A model generated the notes under the pieces. It saw only the letters and a program-made list of their open reading frames with translations, made no database searches and had not been told where the DNA came from. A stretch of 64,000 nt of DNA, taken from Bacteroidota bacterium. Its GTDB lineage: Bacteria; Bacteroidota; Ignavibacteria; OLB7. Positions 45,461 through 55,083 of this stretch are shown here, in pieces. Position 1 is the stretch's first letter. Every line of letters begins with the position of its first letter. The position numbers and the translations under genes are program-made. The stretch spans positions 1 through 64,000 of the forward strand of contig JAFDZV010000012.1 of NCBI GenBank assembly GCA_018266795.1, in the 5' to 3' direction.

Positions 45461-47953
45461 CTATGCCGATCCGTGTGTTTTCGGATGCTGTGTGCTTTGT
45501 CTGGCACGGTGCGTCGCGATCTGGTTCGCTGGCACCCCGTGAAGCCGGAAGATGTGAGGCACTGCCTCGATCAACGTACCCACCGGAATGATCTCCAGAC
45601 CCTGCTTCACGGTATCGGAGATGTCCGCAAGGTCCTTCACATTGTCGCGTGGAATGATCACGGTCTTGATGCCGACACGCCGCGCGGCAATGAGCTTCTC
45701 GGTGAGCCCGCCGATCGGCAAGATACGACCTCGCAGCGTAATCTCGCCGGTCATTGCCACATCGGAGCGGATCGGGCGCCCCGTGGCGGCCGATATCACC
45801 GCAACCGCCATCGTGATGCCGGCGGAGGGCCCATCCTTCGGGATCGCCCCCTCCGGCACGTGCACGTGAATCTCCTTCCCCTTGCTGAAATCCTCCGAGA
45901 CCCCCAGAAGCACCGCGTTCGCACGGATGTAGGTAATCGCAGCGGAGACGGACTCCTTCATGACGTCGCCGAGCTGGCCGGTCAGGGTCAGCTTCTCGGT
46001 GCCTGAAACGATGGAGACCTCCACGGTCAGCGTGTCGCCGCCAACCGACGTCCAGGCAAGCCCGGTAGCGGCTCCCACCAGATCCTCCTTCTCCCCCACG
46101 CGATTACGATAGCGCGGCACCTTCAGATAGTGCTCCACGAGATCGGGAGTAAGCGTGACGCTCCCGCCGGGCTTACGGCCCCGGCCGGTTGCGCGCGTCT
46201 TCACTGCAGGCGCCTCCCTCACACTCGAGGTAACGACACCGGAGCTGATCAACTGCTTGGCAACCTTGCGGCAGAGCGACGCAATCTCGCGTTCGAGGTT
46301 CCGAACGCCCGCCTCGGCGGTGTACTCGCGGACCACCTTCAGAATAGCGGCGTCGGTAAAGGTGATGCGATAGCGATCCAGCCCGTGCTCCTTCAACTGC
46401 TTCGGAATGATATGTCGCTTCGCGATCTCAAGCTTCTCGTACTCCAGATAGCCGTTCAGCTCGATGATCTCCATACGGTCCTGCAGCGGCAGCGGAATGT
46501 TGAAGAGAACATTCGCCGTCGTGATGAAGAGAACCTTGGAGAGATCGTAGTCCACCTCGAGATAGTGATCGTTGAAGGTGGAGTTCTGCTCGGGGTCCAG
46601 AACCTCCAGCATGGCCGAGGAGGGATCGCCGCGGAAGTCCGCGCTCATCTTGTCGATCTCATCGAGCAGGAGCACCGGATTGGTAACGCCGGCGCGTTTC
46701 ATGGACTGAAGGATCTTCCCCGGCATGGAGCCGATATAGGTGCGGCGATGCCCGCGGATCTCCGCCTCGTCGCGCACGCCGCCAAGGGAGACGCGCACGA
46801 ACTTGCGCCCGAGCGCCCGGGCGATAGACTTGCCCAGCGAGGTCTTCCCAACGCCGGGCGGGCCCACCAGGCAGAGGATCTGGCCGCGCATCTCCTTCAC
46901 CAGATTCAGTACGGCAATATGCTCGAGGATGCGCTCCTTCGGACGCTCCAGGCCGAAATGGTCCTCATCCAGCACCTGCTTCACATGGTGGATGTCCAGA
47001 TTGTCCTCGGTCTCCTTGGACCACGGCACCGCGGTCAGCCACTCCAGATAATTCCGGTTGACGGCAAACTCCGGCGACATCATCGGGGTCTTGCGGAGCT
47101 TCTCCAGCTCTTCGTACGCACGTACCTCCACCTCCTGCGGCATCTTCGCCTCACGGATCGCCTCGAGCAGCTTGCCCAACTCCGGCGACACCTCCCCTTC
47201 CTCCTCCAGCTCCGTCTGGAGCGCACGGATCTGTTCCTGAATAAGGAACTGGCGCTGCGAGCGCTGGATGGTGTCCTGCACCTTGGTGTCGATCTCCTGC
47301 TCCAGCTTCAACACCTCGATCTCGTTCTTCAGGATCGTGATCAGCTCCATATACTGTTCACGAATCTCGCGCGTCTCGAGAATGCGCTGCTTCGCCTCCA
47401 CCTTGCTGATCAGATTCGCAGCAATGAAGTAGAGCTTGCGAACCGGCTCGGCGATGTTGTCGAAGGCAACCATCACTTCCTGCGGGAGGCCGCGATGAAG
47501 CTGCGTGTACTCCTGGAACAGATCGGAGGCCTGGCGCAGAAGCGCCTCCATCTTCTTGTCGCCGGGAACAGTCACCGTCAGGACGCTGACGTCGGCCTCC
47601 ATGAAGCCGTTGGTTTCCACTACCCGATCGATGAATCCCTGCGACTCCCCTTCCACGAGTATCTTCATCAGACCGTTGGGAAGGCGCAGCATCTGCACGA
47701 TCTTGGCAACGGTACCGGTCAGGTAGATATCCTCGGCCTGAGGCTCGTCCACGGAGGAGTTGCGCTGGGCCACGAGGAAGATGTATTTGTCGCGGCTAAG
47801 TGCCTCGGCTGCAGCCCGAAGAGAGAGCTCCCGGCCAACGAGGACCGGGAAGATCATGTTCGGAAAGATCACCACATCACGAAGCGGAAGCACCGGCAAA
47901 CGATTCGTTGTCGGCAACTTCTCCTTGGCACGCCTGCTGTTTGTTCGTTTCAT
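45461..47953 (-). CDS. lon: ATP-dependent protease Lon
   Basis: An 830-residue LonA protease, which degrades misfolded and regulatory proteins in the cytosol. Domain order is normal: the substrate-binding N-domain ([20 protein letters not shown]), a long coiled-coil region near residues 200-310, the AAA+ module with Walker [14 protein letters not shown] near 365 and Walker [11 protein letters not shown] near 430, and the peptidase domain with catalytic Ser in [10 protein letters not shown] near 708 and the conserved Lys in [10 protein letters not shown] near 750. A basic linker ([14 protein letters not shown]) near 600 is longer than usual. The ATG at 47953 is used; a TTG two codons upstream is possible. 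It is divergent from the sigma factor gene. Confidence 0.97.
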
Positions 47954-47964
47954 AGTCAAGCCGG

Positions 47965-47997: not shown

Positions 47998-48123
47998 GTA
48001 CGCAACCTTGGGACTATGCAACAAAAGGCGACGATTTCGGAGCGGATTTGGGAGTAACCATTTGCAATCTACTGTGTAAGTTGATGGAGAATGGGAAGAA
48101 GATCATCCATACGAAGCGTTGAA

Positions 48124-48651
48124 ATGTCCGATGACGACCTGTTCTGCCTGACGCAGAACGGCGACATGGAGGCATTCAACGTTCTGTTCAAGCGGTACGA
48201 GCGCAAGGTGTACATGTACTGTATGCGTGTGCTGCTTGACGAGGACATGGCCCACGATGCGTTTCAGGAGGCATTCATGCGCCTGTACGAACATCGGATG
48301 AGCTATGACGGACGCAATTTCATGGTCTGGTTCTTCACAATTGTCAGGAACGTTTGCCTGAACCTGCGTCGAAACAAAAAGGTGACGGTACCGTTCGAGA
48401 CATCGCGCGCCAACGAGTCGCCGGCGAAGGTGACCGATGTCGTGCTGCATGAGCACATCGTCCTGGCATTGAATCAACTGCCGATAGATCATCGCGAGGC
48501 CCTTGTTCTGTACGAGTATGACGGCTACTCCTATCAGGAGATCGCCAACATCACAGGTGTTTCGATAGCTACGGTCAAGATCAGGATCTTCCGCGCACGC
48601 AAGCTGTTACGCACGTTACTACATCCGGTGGTCTACGATAATGGAGTTTGA
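48124..48651 (+). CDS. ECF-type RNA polymerase sigma factor
   Basis: A 175-residue sigma-70-family factor of ECF size. Region 2: FNVLFKRYERKVYMYCMRVL, DMAHDAFQEAFMRLYEH and FMVWFFTIVRNVCLNLRR, the last being the usual RNA-polymerase and -10 contact helix. Region 4: LNQLPIDHREALVLYEYDGYSYQEIANITGVS followed by ATVKIRIFRARKLLR, the -35 helix-turn-helix. The start at 48124 is set by MSDDDLFCLTQNGD. It overlaps the next gene by 11 bases, which encodes the presumed anti-sigma factor, the standard arrangement for an ECF pair. Confidence 0.95.
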   Translation: MSDDDLFCLTQNGDMEAFNVLFKRYERKVYMYCMRVLLDEDMAHDAFQEAFMRLYEHRMSYDGRNFMVWFFTIVRNVCLNLRRNKKVTVPFETSRANESPAKVTDVVLHEHIVLALNQLPIDHREALVLYEYDGYSYQEIANITGVSIATVKIRIFRARKLLRTLLHPVVYDNGV

Positions 48652-50290
48652 TCATCTACTTCGGAAATACTTGTCGGGCACGATAACCGACGGCGAGCTG
48701 GACCAGTTCCAGTCGCTGTTGGAGCGTGTGCCGGAATACATGGCGGAGCTTCGCGACACGCTGGAGCTTCGCTCGCTCCTGCACGACGACGCCCTGACGC
48801 TGACGCCTCCGGCCGATCTTTCGGAGCATGTCCGCATTGCTGTATCGAGCAGCTTCGCGGCCGATGCGATCACGGAGTTCGAAGAGGTGTCCCGCCGCCG
48901 CCGTGCATTTCTCTTTCCGCTCCGCATTACCGCCGGGGCTCTGGTTGCAGTCTGTCTGGCCGTAAGCGTAGCGCTCACCCCGACGCTGCCGCCTGGCACC
49001 TTTGCAGCCAAGGGGAGCCAGAGCATCCAGACCGGAAGGATGGCCGACAATTCGATCGACGCCCCGTCGCCCGCGAACATTCGCGGCAACACTTCGGTAC
49101 CGCATGTGCGGCCGAATCCGGCACACGCTCCGGCTGAGCGGTCCGGCATTCCCGTTGATAACCATGCGGCAACGGCCCAGCCCGATGTACTTGCCGATGC
49201 CGGAACGGCGCATGCCGATGCGGTATCCGCAACGCATGCCGGCCGCACGGAGGGCTACCGGTGGCTTGTCGATCACGAGATCCCGATCCGCGTACCGGCC
49301 ATGGAAGCGGATGGGCACGGCGGCAGCATCGCAAGCAACGACGTTCGTCACTCCGGCAACCCGATACTGCTCGGCGGATCGGGAAGCGAGGGGATGATCT
49401 CGCGCGACCCGATGGATCTGCTGATGCGTACGCCGATGGGCTCCGGCTATAACCCGCTGATCGATTCTGCTACCCAGCGCGAGTCGCAGCCGTCCATTCA
49501 ATCCGAAGCAACTCCGGGCGAGGCAATCGCCAGTGTGACCCCGAACGACTGGCACCTGATGACGATCGGCGTAACGCTCGGCGCGGGAAGCATCATCGAG
49601 AAGGTATCCCCAACGGCTCTGCTTCAGAACTCCTACTACTTCTCGTTCAGCCTCTCCGGAGGCGACCGCATCGGAGTAGAGATGGGCGCTTCAACGTTCG
49701 AGCGTGAGAGCAAGAGCTCCTCACCGTTCGGCGCGGGCAAGCGGAACAGCAACGACAACATCTTCCTCGCCTCCAACCTTCCGGTCTCCGGCGGCGGAGG
49801 AAGCTATCTCGGTCTGGTGGACAATGCGCAGGGCTCGCACTCGAAGGGGCTGGGCAAATCCGTGATAGACGACACGCCAACCAACGGAGACCTTCCCACG
49901 AAGGATCTGCCGCCGGTGCCGAAGCGGGGAAGTGACATGAAGGACAACAGCCGTTCGTACGCTGTAGATCCCACCGAGCCGAGCGGCCCGGTGCCCACGC
50001 CCGCTCCTGCCCATCTGCTGGAACAGCAGATCACCTATGGCGCGGTGTTCTACGATCATCGCTTCAAGCTCGGCAAGCGGTGGGACGTATGCGGGCGCGT
50101 TACCGTCGGCGCCGCCGACGACGGCCTGGTAAGCAGTTTCCGTACGTACGCGGCCTACAGCCCGGGCACCCGGAATATCTCACTGACCATGGGCGTTGGA
50201 AGCTCTACGCTCTTCAACCTCAGCCCGACGCGCGAGAAGACGGTAAGCACCAACTACGGTGTGTACTATGGTGTGGAACTCGGGTTCTGA
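48641..50290 (+). CDS. Anti-sigma-like membrane protein with barrel-like C-terminal domain
   Basis: A 549-residue protein overlapping the sigma gene by 11 bases. Residues 1-85 are helical and resemble cytosolic anti-sigma segments (LLRKYLSGTITDGELDQFQS, then VPEYMAELRDTLELRSLL). One membrane helix follows at about 90-112 (ITAGALVAVCLAVSVAL). Residues 115-280 are a Pro/Ala/Thr-rich, probably disordered linker. Residues about 290-549 alternate in beta-barrel fashion (SYYFSFSLSGGDRIGVEMGA, WDVCGRVTVGAADDG) and end in YGVELGF, the aromatic C-terminus typical of outer-membrane barrels. There is no zinc-finger HxxxCxxC. Similar fusions are known in Bacteroidota; whether the tail truly spans the outer membrane is uncertain. 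Confidence 0.75.
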   Translation: MEFDHLLRKYLSGTITDGELDQFQSLLERVPEYMAELRDTLELRSLLHDDALTLTPPADLSEHVRIAVSSSFAADAITEFEEVSRRRRAFLFPLRITAGALVAVCLAVSVALTPTLPPGTFAAKGSQSIQTGRMADNSIDAPSPANIRGNTSVPHVRPNPAHAPAERSGIPVDNHAATAQPDVLADAGTAHADAVSATHAGRTEGYRWLVDHEIPIRVPAMEADGHGGSIASNDVRHSGNPILLGGSGSEGMISRDPMDLLMRTPMGSGYNPLIDSATQRESQPSIQSEATPGEAIASVTPNDWHLMTIGVTLGAGSIIEKVSPTALLQNSYYFSFSLSGGDRIGVEMGASTFERESKSSSPFGAGKRNSNDNIFLASNLPVSGGGGSYLGLVDNAQGSHSKGLGKSVIDDTPTNGDLPTKDLPPVPKRGSDMKDNSRSYAVDPTEPSGPVPTPAPAHLLEQQITYGAVFYDHRFKLGKRWDVCGRVTVGAADDGLVSSFRTYAAYSPGTRNISLTMGVGSSTLFNLSPTREKTVSTNYGVYYGVELGF

Positions 50291-50340: not shown

Positions 50341-50382
50341 CAGGCGCCTTCCAGAACATCTCGGAGGCGCCTGATTCGTTTT
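50341..50382 (+). terminator. Intrinsic terminator
   Basis: CAGGCGCCT (50341-50349) pairs with AGGCGCCTG (50365-50373), followed by ATTCGTTTT. It ends the sigma/anti-sigma transcript. Confidence 0.75.
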
Positions 50383-50456: not shown

Positions 50457-51377
50457 ATGCATCGCCCTTCACTACTGCAAACCGCCGCCGGAGCCTGCAT
50501 CCTGTGCGCACTTCTGTTCCTGGCGCAATGCCTGTACGCGGGCAACCCGATCGTACAGCCCAAGGGAAAGGGAGAGCTCACGATCTACGGGGGATCCTCC
50601 AGCACCACGGGCTACTACGACGTGAACGGCGTGATGAAGCGCTTCGATACGCTTGCCACGGAGTTCACCGCAACCACGTTCGGAATGAACATGACGTACG
50701 GACTCACGGACGATGTGCAACTGGACCTGGACGTGCCGCTGGGTTACTACTCCATCACCAGCAAGGCGTTGCATCCGAAGCGGAGCATCTTCTCGATAAC
50801 GTACTATGGAGTGGGGGCCACGTATCAATTGAGCCGCGGAAAGGTGAGCAGCTCGATCAGCGGCATGGTGAAGGTACCGCCGGGATTCCATCACGGCATC
50901 TACGACGATCCCAACCATCCCACGTTCCTGAGCGACGGCTACTTCCAGATCGGCGGCGCGTTCAATTTCGGGTTCAACATGAAGGAGACCTGGATCAAGG
51001 GACATGTTGGCTACAACTGGCGCGACGAGGAGCCGGCCGATGAGATCGTCTACGGTGCCGAAGTCGGCTTCTCGAAGGTGGAGGGAACGGGAATCTATGT
51101 GAAGGTAGACGGTGTTGTCACCACGGCGGATGTCACGCAGCCGCTGGAGCCCTTCTACGCCGGCACGTCGGGGCCGCCCAGCAGCCTCGAACGACTCGAC
51201 GGCGGCCGCGGGATTTTCCGGACGATCGACCGGGAGGACTATACAGCGCTCACCGCGGGCGCATTCGTTGGAATCTCCAGCCACGTCTTCCTGAGCGGTT
51301 CCTATACGCTCAGGCTGTTCGGCAACAACACCCTGGACCTGAAGGGCGCATACCTTGGCGCAGGCTACAAATTTTAG
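50457..51377 (+). CDS. Outer-membrane beta-barrel protein
   Basis: A 306-residue exported protein with signal peptide (GACILCALLFLAQCLYA). The mature part is a succession of amphipathic strands and turns, for example ELTIYGGSSSTTGYYD, FGMNMTYGLTDDVQLDLDVPLG, ITYYGVGATYQLSRGKVSSSISG, FQIGGAFNFGFNM and the final LKGAYLGAGYKF with C-terminal Phe. The pattern fits a transporter-like or MetA-pathway-phenol-type barrel. No export partner is adjacent. Its position just after an ECF pair suggests regulation by that sigma factor, which is inference. Confidence 0.78.
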   Translation: MHRPSLLQTAAGACILCALLFLAQCLYAGNPIVQPKGKGELTIYGGSSSTTGYYDVNGVMKRFDTLATEFTATTFGMNMTYGLTDDVQLDLDVPLGYYSITSKALHPKRSIFSITYYGVGATYQLSRGKVSSSISGMVKVPPGFHHGIYDDPNHPTFLSDGYFQIGGAFNFGFNMKETWIKGHVGYNWRDEEPADEIVYGAEVGFSKVEGTGIYVKVDGVVTTADVTQPLEPFYAGTSGPPSSLERLDGGRGIFRTIDREDYTALTAGAFVGISSHVFLSGSYTLRLFGNNTLDLKGAYLGAGYKF

Positions 51378-51464: not shown

Positions 51465-53144
51465 ATGAAGATCGGAGCCGCACGAACAGATGCATGCTGG
51501 CGGCACGCGGAGTGCCGGAGTTGCGATGAGTCCGGAACACATCACGCCATCAGGCGGACGGTTCCACATGTCGTGCTGCATTTGCTGTGGCTGATCGCGG
51601 CGGCGACTGCCCTGCTTGCCCAGGCAGATGTCTACCCTCCGGTTCTGTACTCGGGCAACAACGCGCTCACCATCACCTGCCCCGACGGCATCAGGCAGAT
51701 CATGGGGTTCATCGGCGGCCGGTGGACGCTGATGCATACCGGCCTCAGCGCCCCCTACGTCAAGGTCACCTCCGCTCCGATGTTCGGCGACTGCGCCACT
51801 CGCGTGAAGATGTCCATCTTCATCATGAAGGCAAATCCGGCGGAGCTCTTCCGGCTCCGCATCGTGACCTGTGACGGCGACATCCAGTATTTCGATTTCA
51901 ATGCAAGCGAACGCTGGGATGTCTTCCATGAACAGTTCGGCACGGTGCAACTCGGGGCAACCGCCTGCCACACGTTCCGCGTGGATACCAGAGGAACGAC
52001 CATCGTCATCGATTCGGTGGCAAGCCCTTCACCGCTCTTCAAGATCCGCTACTTCAACGGGCATCCACCGCTGCGCGTAACCTCCGGCTCATCGTATCTC
52101 TACGACGTCTGCTTCCGGCCGGCAAGAATCGGATTTGTGAAGATGCCGATCCTCGTTTACCTGCGAAGGCGATATCCGGCGGGAGGGTTCACCAATTTCA
52201 TCGTGGCGGACACCGCCTACGTGAACGTCGTGCAGCCGAACACACCGCTGGCCAGAGTGGACGCGCCCCCAGCGCCGCAGAGGCCGCGGCAGTTGACGGC
52301 TCTCCCTCCACTTATCATTCACCGGCCGAAGCCCCGACCGAAACCTGTTCCGCCGCCGGCAGCACCCCATGTGGACACGCCGCACGTTGCTGGGCCTCCG
52401 CCGCAGATTACTTCCGTGGGATACCGTACGATTCCCATGGCGGTCGATCCCCCGGCCCCGGCTCCCGGCACTGCGCCGCCGGCGGTTCCGGTTGTGGAGG
52501 ATGAAGTGCTGACCGATCCCACCACGCATCGCGTTGTGCTGATGCCGACGGCGCGGTCCGTAAATGCCGGACGCTTCTTCGTTGCCAACTACGAGCTCGG
52601 CGGCTGGCTGGCCGGCTATGGTGCGGGCGATCGGCTCACACTGCTGGCTGGAGGCGCCTACGTCCCCCCCGCAATCTCCTACAATCTGGTTGCAACCGCC
52701 GGCGCGCGCTACGAGCTGCTGCGTGAAGGAACCCTGCGCGGCGCACTGGGAGTGCAGGGAAGCCTGTCGCGCACCGATATCTCATCGATCACGCTGGCCG
52801 CACCGTATGCGGTTGCAAGCATCGGCGACGACGATCAACGCGCGAGCATTGTGCTGGGCTACACGTGGCGGCATCACACACCGCGGGACGGCACGCCGGC
52901 GTTCGACCGGAACGCCGCGCTGCTGGCGGCCGGCGGCGACTATCGCTTCGCCGAACACTGGAAGGTTGCTGCGGAGGCGTATCTCTTGGAGAGTGCGGAC
53001 TACCAGCCGCTGGTGGCAACGGTACGCTACTTCGGCAGAAACTTCGCGGTGGATGCCGGGCTCGGCATAAACATGGGGCTGAACGGAGCGGGCTCCGGAA
53101 CGCTGCGCGCCGCACCGGTGGTAACGGCAACGTGGGTGTGGTAG
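51465..53144 (+). CDS. Two-domain envelope protein, paralogue of the gene at 9837
   Basis: A 559-residue exported protein. After a long, doubtful N-terminus, the signal-like segment VVLHLLWLIAAATALLAQA precedes YPPVLYSGNNALTITCPDGI, matching YPPEIYCGENTITISLPSGI of the 9837 protein. The first domain keeps cysteines in VTC, ATACHTF and YDVCF and the word RRRYPAGG. A very long Pro-rich linker (PKPRPKPVPPPAAPH and PPAPAPGTAPPAVPV) follows; the last 200 residues are barrel-like (APYAVASIGDDDQRASIV, VATVRYFGRNFAVDAGLG). The first Met at 51465 is used, but an in-frame GTG near the hydrophobic segment could be the real start. Function unknown. Confidence 0.72.
   Translation: MKIGAARTDACWRHAECRSCDESGTHHAIRRTVPHVVLHLLWLIAAATALLAQADVYPPVLYSGNNALTITCPDGIRQIMGFIGGRWTLMHTGLSAPYVKVTSAPMFGDCATRVKMSIFIMKANPAELFRLRIVTCDGDIQYFDFNASERWDVFHEQFGTVQLGATACHTFRVDTRGTTIVIDSVASPSPLFKIRYFNGHPPLRVTSGSSYLYDVCFRPARIGFVKMPILVYLRRRYPAGGFTNFIVADTAYVNVVQPNTPLARVDAPPAPQRPRQLTALPPLIIHRPKPRPKPVPPPAAPHVDTPHVAGPPPQITSVGYRTIPMAVDPPAPAPGTAPPAVPVVEDEVLTDPTTHRVVLMPTARSVNAGRFFVANYELGGWLAGYGAGDRLTLLAGGAYVPPAISYNLVATAGARYELLREGTLRGALGVQGSLSRTDISSITLAAPYAVASIGDDDQRASIVLGYTWRHHTPRDGTPAFDRNAALLAAGGDYRFAEHWKVAAEAYLLESADYQPLVATVRYFGRNFAVDAGLGINMGLNGAGSGTLRAAPVVTATWVW

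Positions 53145-53424: not shown

Positions 53425-55083
<1,659 letters not shown>

Follow-up and report, generated by a model that had tools for sequence, protein, structure and literature searches.

A probable ECF sigma/anti-sigma pair of cross-envelope, Dma-like design beside lon in a Chlorobiota-lineage bacterium

Introduction

Dual membrane-spanning anti-sigma factors (Dma) are defined, in the sections of PMC13088901 drawn on here, by an N-terminal anti-sigma domain, a membrane helix, a long disordered tether and a C-terminal barrel. According to the same sections, the partner is an adjacent sigma factor of the ECF21 group. Genetic evidence for sigma restraint was given there for Dma1 and Dma2 of Bacteroides, and loss of Dma2 acts via its sigma factor. 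The definition further holds that deletion of a Dma raises vesicle output or changes envelope genes (PMC13088901). In these sections the published examples of the design are a few proteins of Bacteroides, its stated range is Bacteroidota alone, and Pardue et al. speculate that Dma2 is a glycan sensor. A related plan is found in the excerpts of PMC9308784 on the Phocaeicola vulgatus pair M0N98_03761/03760. The anti-sigma factor of this pair is said to cross the periplasm and to end in an outer-membrane barrel, and induction of the sigma gene by a toxin that damages the envelope is described.

In this study, a sigma gene and the gene overlapping it were analyzed in a 64,000-nucleotide stretch of DNA (the window) from a bacterium of the Chlorobiota lineage. 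A preliminary description of the pair had been made from the letters and open reading frames. The features of the locus are listed in Table 1.

Table 1. Features of the locus, with positions in the window
Feature	Position	Strand	Details and basis
lon	45461-47959		Divergent from the sigma gene; flanks the locus
Promoter-like motif GTAACYATT-N10-TGTGTAWGTT	48054..48082	+	41 bases before the sigma start codon
ECF sigma gene	48124..48651	+	175 aa; Pfam Sigma70_r2, Sigma70_r4_2; TIGR02937
Putative Dma-like cross-envelope anti-sigma gene (ORF2)	48641..50290	+	549 aa, ATG start; relatives, alignment, AlphaFold2
Predicted cytosolic, helical anti-sigma-like domain	48641..48886	+	Residues 1-82; four model helices; NF052375
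Predicted single membrane helix	48914..48976	+	Residues 92-112, Arg-rich cytosolic flank; model, hydropathy
Predicted disordered tether for the periplasm	48977..49549	+	Residues 113-303; pLDDT about 35-50
Predicted eight-stranded outer-membrane-type barrel	49550..50287	+	Residues 304-549; AlphaFold2, structure search, strand faces
Disordered, variable loop joining strands 3 and 4	49712..50011	+	Residues 358-457; 9-100 residues in 31 relatives
Terminator-like strong hairpin, then UGAUUCGUUUUC	50341..50373	+	-23.6 kcal/mol, z -5.24
ORF3	50457..51377	+	About 306 aa, exported, barrel-like end LGAGYKF; 45-55% identity in 4/4 relatives
ORF4	51465..53144	+	About 559 aa (start uncertain), exported N-terminus, Pro-rich middle, barrel-like end TATWVW; 41-47% identity in 4/4 relatives
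groEL	53425-55056		Downstream flank, after ORF4

Results and Discussion

The gene pair and its surroundings

The first gene had been called an ECF sigma gene in the preliminary description, and this was borne out. The protein matched Pfam Sigma70_r2 (1.1e-14) and Sigma70_r4_2 (1.2e-17), both above cut-off, and the NCBIfam model TIGR02937 with 95.2 bits (cut-off 42.9). Among the models listed, that of the ECF superfamily was the only NCBIfam model above its cut-off. Identity of the sigma factor to its four relatives of the same family (G001-G004) was 69-95%.

The second gene, ORF2, overlaps the sigma gene by 11 bases (48641-48651), just as had been described. Overlap was found in 26 of 33 sigma/anti-sigma pairs of related genomes and was exactly 11 bases in 11 of them; some starts among the 33 are those of the longest possible frame and may be wrong. 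The overlapping arrangement can thus be regarded as a habit of the family. Relatives of ORF2 with 30-52% identity were present in all four other searched family genomes, and a sigma gene adjoined each of them. Therefore, ORF2 is a real gene and no chance frame.

The gene order of lon (divergent), sigma, anti-sigma, ORF3 and ORF4 was kept in all four relatives. ORF4 is followed by groEL in the window genome and in G001, and by another gene in G002 and G004; the contig of G003 ends there. The flanks lon and groEL make up a protein-quality-control neighbourhood, with lon adjacent in 4/4 relatives and groEL just in G001 among those read.

Predicted anatomy of the ORF2 protein

The three-dimensional structure of the ORF2 protein was modelled with AlphaFold2 from an alignment of 31 sequences, those of the five orthologues and 26 more distant relatives. 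In this alignment, two loci of unusual length (L040 and L059) and a candidate unmatched by the profile (L044) were omitted. For G001-G004 the sequences came out of longer loci; for L008, L019, L027, L028, L034 and L046 the start codon was picked within the longest frame. The model had an overall pLDDT of 63.5 and a pTM of 0.43, with 141 residues at pLDDT 90 or above and 250 of the 549 residues below 50; confidence was high for the order of the domains and for the eight strands.

The head helices of the model were residues 3-12, 17-29, 31-53 and 58-82. The hydropathy of the membrane helix was 2.19 at residue 94, and low confidence prevailed almost throughout residues 114-301. The barrel strands were residues 307-319, 325-337, 342-357, 458-476, 481-492, 495-506, 513-526 and 535-548. 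The model agreed with the order proposed in the preliminary description: cytosolic helices, one membrane helix, a disordered linker and a barrel-like end, YGVELGF. The barrel proposed for the C-terminal 260 residues was also found, but as a continuous domain it did not hold up, about 150 barrel residues being split by a disordered loop of about 95 residues (about 360-455). In the five orthologues, both ends of the protein were conserved and the middle was not. Lys and Arg were more numerous before the membrane helix than after it in 23 of the 31 relatives, equal in 5 and fewer in 3, and the excess in 23/31 fits a cytosolic N-terminus. The loop between strands 3 and 4 would lie on the cell surface if the barrel start is periplasmic.

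From the computed layout, fold and conservation, we infer that the locus very probably encodes an ECF sigma/anti-sigma pair of the Dma design. By analogy with the published proteins of this layout, the head of the ORF2 protein would bind the sigma factor and retain it until some event in the envelope. The barrel would be inserted in the outer membrane, and the pair would be autoregulated from the GTAAC-type motif.

Proposed mechanism and constraint on the tether and loop

In the Dma design, the N-terminal helices would keep the sigma factor on the cytosolic side of the inner membrane, in which the single helix would anchor the protein. The disordered tether of about 190 residues would cross the periplasm, and the C-terminus would fold in the outer membrane as an eight-stranded barrel of OmpA size. 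With one chain moored in both membranes, transcription would be coupled straight to the condition of the outer membrane, and no relay would be needed.

The likeliest mechanism within this explanation is that the barrel serves as a reporter on outer-membrane state or on barrel assembly, a quite plausible reading that falls a little short of being probable. A misinserted or disturbed barrel would leave the tether open to periplasmic cleavage. A cut by an RseP-type intramembrane protease, at a guess, would then free the sigma factor, which would activate envelope genes as well as the gene pair to which it belongs. An RseP family member was found above cut-off in the window genome; RseP-type matches were also found in 14/14 control genomes, and its presence is therefore of little weight.

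A specific surface ligand or partner is the first alternative. In that case, the anatomy would be the same, the barrel would be a receptor whose long loop binds the ligand, and binding would be the signal. At 100 residues in the window protein, the loop that joins strands 3 and 4 is indeed long and, by the predicted topology, on the surface. Its length varies within the family (9-100 residues in the 31 relatives, CV 0.50), one genome carries several pairs, and the glycan sensing ascribed speculatively to Dma2 by Pardue et al. in the sections cited above points the same way. Among the five orthologues, however, the loop varies in length (41-100 residues) and is unconserved in sequence, whereas the less hydrophobic barrel face is conserved. 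Since the loop is unconserved even among orthologues, sensing of the outer membrane or of its assembly was considered likelier, and a ligand receptor is possible but doubtful.

The tether was the least conserved of six compared segments (mean majority identity 0.25). It consisted to 66% of S, T, N, Q, P, G, A, E and D in the 31 relatives and had no Cys. As its sequence is unconserved, any unspecific protease could cut it, and the barrel might be freed during maturation as an ordinary small outer-membrane protein, leaving the N-terminal half as an ordinary inner-membrane anti-sigma factor. This second alternative is improbable. From the helix to the barrel (counted to residue 304), the tether measured 125-208 residues in the 31 relatives (CV 0.13) and was never below 125, whereas the surface loop shrinks to 9. 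The difference suggests selection for an unbroken physical link between the membranes. A length kept within bounds, with the sequence left free, would suit a spacer for the periplasm, as read from 31 sequences that are mutually related. In the comparative set, conserved features (the head, one barrel face and the length of the tether) are thus told apart from free ones (the sequence of the tether and the loop on the surface), a distinction relevant to the working of such sensors.

Fold of the C-terminal domain

The barrel model was compared with known structures. Foldseek gave OmpA first (E 8.3e-8) and then NspA (3.0e-6). The eight-stranded barrel superposes on the OmpA transmembrane domain. 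With VIA-align, the highest Z was that of a Legionella porin (16.6), and the further outer-membrane-type matches were as follows (Z/rmsd/residues): OmpA model, 16.5/3.0/157; PagL, 16.1/2.2/130; NspA, 16.0/2.4/140; OprF, 15.1/2.2/121; and a designed transmembrane barrel, 15.1/1.7/116. The OmpA entries 1qjp, 1bxw, 9fzd, 9fzc and 9a2m gave Z 14.1-16.5, and the NMR entry 2ge4 gave 11.5.

To guard against circularity, a second model was built for a relative of another family from 19 of the 31 sequences. The window protein and its four orthologues were left out, as were L008, L039, L049, L054, L057, L058 and L060. The second model had the same domain order and eight strands, and its Z values were 16.8 for NspA, 16.4 for OmpA, 16.3 for OprF and up to 11.5 for PsbO. 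A crude strand-alternation scan was dropped, as it gave just 4 segments in the barrel part and separated poorly from controls.

The strand faces of the 31 relatives were assigned by hydrophobicity. Of the residues on the hydrophobic face, 60% were large and hydrophobic and 3.7% were charged. The hydrophobic fraction is partly a product of how the faces were chosen; the difference in conservation is not. Conservation was 0.45 on the less hydrophobic face versus 0.37 on the hydrophobic face. All six positions conserved in at least 90% (G345, E347, G349, G490, G518 and G544) lie on the less hydrophobic face, and R486 and R501 lie there too. Such a pattern would follow from contact of the hydrophobic face with lipid. 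Barrel assembly is usually signalled by an aromatic strand at the C-terminus. The C-terminal residue was F in 16 and L in 7 of the 31 relatives. No Pfam outer-membrane barrel family was matched by any of the 31 at E up to 0.01. A sequence search of the PDB with the family profile gave no significant relative; the top hit was the RseA chain 1or7_C (E 0.28, non-significant).

A soluble periplasmic domain in the C-terminal part had been named beforehand as the outcome that would speak against the preliminary description. With such an eight-stranded barrel, lipocalin- or avidin-like, ORF2 would be an anti-sigma factor that crosses one membrane and has its sensor domain in the periplasm. Soluble barrels do align (Z/rmsd/residues): designed mFAP2b, 11.5/3.0/117; avidin, 9.6/4.2/115; and PsbO, Z up to 10.2. 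The small outer-membrane barrels OmpX (Z 10.2) and Ail (10.5) do not outscore the best of these. However, the best outer-membrane barrels reach Z 13-16.6, the hydrophobic face is variable and nearly uncharged, the opposite face is conserved and Gly-rich, and F or L is the last residue in 23/31. Two models from different alignments gave an eight-stranded barrel closest to outer-membrane barrels, with strand faces that also look lipid-exposed. The soluble alternative is therefore very improbable, and a barrel in the outer membrane, as in the Dma design, is preferred.

The N-terminal head

Residues 6-111 matched the NCBIfam anti-sigma model NF052375 at 6.5e-9 (36.1 bits, below the curated cut-off of 100), and a second anti-sigma model matched the head at 5.4e-5. 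The score of the ORF2 protein against NF010501 was 22.9 bits (cut-off 225). No Pfam or NCBIfam match above a curated cut-off was obtained for the head or the barrel. Pfam zf-HC2 was matched by 4 of the 31 relatives at E up to 0.01; the window protein had no match. That anti-sigma matches fall below curated cut-offs would suit a membrane tether merely encoded beside a sigma gene and not an anti-sigma factor, but the E-values of the two anti-sigma models and the adjoining ECF sigma gene in 5/5 family genomes make this reading highly improbable; the 33 sigma/anti-sigma pairs count for nothing here, because they were selected for adjacency.

Upstream motif and possible regulon

The promoter-like motif precedes the sigma gene in 5/5 family genomes with exactly identical spacing. 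Invariant columns numbered 18 of 29 in the motif versus 19 of 141 in the remaining intergenic stretch. With up to 3 mismatches, one match was found in the window, at the sigma gene, and 0 were expected in shuffles. ECF promoters in general have a two-block layout, which the motif resembles. The results suggested that the sigma factor may drive its own gene from this GTAAC-type motif.

The genomes were then scanned with a pattern built from the five sigma-upstream sites, so those sites match by construction. With 0-1 mismatches, just two further sites were found in the window genome, both on one contig, C32 (0 and 1 mismatch; L142:1678-1706 and 971-999), and none in the four relatives. One of them lies before a gene for a 1081-aa TonB-dependent receptor, which starts about 430 bases downstream, and the other before that of a 160-aa secreted protein. 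With exactly 2 mismatches, the window genome had one more site (contig C6), and G001 had one. When the pattern was reversed as a control, no match occurred in the window genome or in G001, and one occurred in each of G002-G004. A stricter pattern used earlier, with 3 mismatches, matched 5 places in the window genome, including the sigma site, versus 2 for its control. As a weak lead, the two C32 sites may mark members of the regulon of the window sigma factor or of a paralogous one.

Pfam and PDB searches with alignments of ORF3 and ORF4 gave nothing significant. No second copy of the motif was found before ORF3 or ORF4 in the window. Because of this single copy and the hairpin after the anti-sigma gene, linkage of ORF3 and ORF4 to the window sigma factor is doubtful. 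An operon including both genes was likewise weakened as a candidate by that strong hairpin and by another before ORF4; the terminator scan called neither hairpin.

Distribution and paralogues

When 61 genomes were searched with the single protein, 6 of them had matches: the window genome, G001-G004 of the same family and, weakly, G046 of another family. A five-sequence profile matched 51 of 294 genomes of the class at E ≤0.001, and a 31-sequence profile matched 174 of 395 genomes of the phylum. Matches were counted as full-length with a profile start of at most 10 and an end of at least 448, and at most 4 candidates were scored per genome, so that counts are lower bounds. At least 54 full-length matches were found in at least 31 genomes, all in the window's class and none outside it among the matches listed; they form a large comparative set. 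Outside the class, the head alone was covered among the matches listed. Three longer out-of-class frames were inspected, and none was a barrel protein: two were anti-sigma-like with other C-terminal parts (a repeat protein and a TPR-like one), and one was shorter and anti-sigma-like. A frame from another class (L143:483-1994) has an unusual periplasmic part, in which an anti-sigma-like segment and a membrane helix are followed by many near-identical FxxLMRExA-type repeats.

In named genomes, the single protein gave no match, and the alignment found four MAG contigs, by their lengths the same as those of G001-G004. Contig JADZEY010000027.1 bears the label Armatimonadetes, which is doubtful; it seems to come from the family of the Chlorobiota MAGs. 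In another branch (L020, L057 and L060), the pair is followed by a lipoprotein-like gene of 187-239 aa and, in L020, also by one for a large exported protein. Different branches may therefore control different envelope products.

The window genome had 32 ECF-type sigma matches, and in six cases a gene for a long protein bearing a membrane helix follows. These are the window's pair and those on contigs C4 (519 aa), C9 (532 aa), C15 (up to 749 aa as an open frame), C50 (438 aa) and C3 at about 101 kb (473 aa). The genome thus probably has six cross-envelope pairs, with the barrel in the C9, C15, C50 and C3 proteins deduced from size, helix and chain end, since the alignment holds the window and C4 proteins alone.

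More speculatively, the class may have built a lineage-specific cross-envelope anti-sigma system with several paralogues per genome and an origin separate from that of Bacteroides Dma. The barrel with its unconserved loops would be a gauge of outer-membrane assembly, and the sigma factor would be off only while one continuous chain is moored in both membranes. This proposal is tentative and, taken as a whole, rather unlikely.

Comparison with known systems

RseA-type anti-sigma factors share with the ORF2 protein the cytosolic helical head, the one membrane helix and the N-in topology. RseA ends in the periplasm, whereas the window protein adds a predicted barrel. FecR-type cell-surface signalling is a different case: no FecR match was found, and the window neighbours are lon, ORF3, ORF4 and groEL, with no TonB-dependent transducer adjoining. 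The OmpA transmembrane domain, OprF, NspA and PagL have the same eight-stranded fold as the barrel model (Z 15-16.5, about 10% identity). Unlike the window protein, these barrels are free-standing or otherwise fused, without an anti-sigma fusion.

The Phocaeicola vulgatus pair, likened here by its description in the excerpts of PMC9308784, has the same plan of a barrel-ended, periplasm-spanning anti-sigma factor and belongs to a different class. Likeness to Bacteroides Dma lies in the four-part layout of head, helix, tether and barrel with an adjacent ECF sigma factor. The window pair differs in its Chlorobiota lineage and in its neighbours, lon, groEL and two exported proteins. The ECF21 partner and the vesicle phenotype are features of Dma, whereas the window partner was placed at the level of the ECF superfamily.

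In the open-licence literature searched, no report of such proteins in Chlorobiota-lineage bacteria was found. Chlorobiota is a separate phylum in NCBI and is folded into Bacteroidota in GTDB, so whether the stated range of Dma is widened depends on the taxonomy used. By layout, and as modelled, the ORF2 protein is of a kind already known, the Dma plan. What is new is a large family in a class of the Chlorobiota lineage, its conserved place beside lon and its pattern of constraint.
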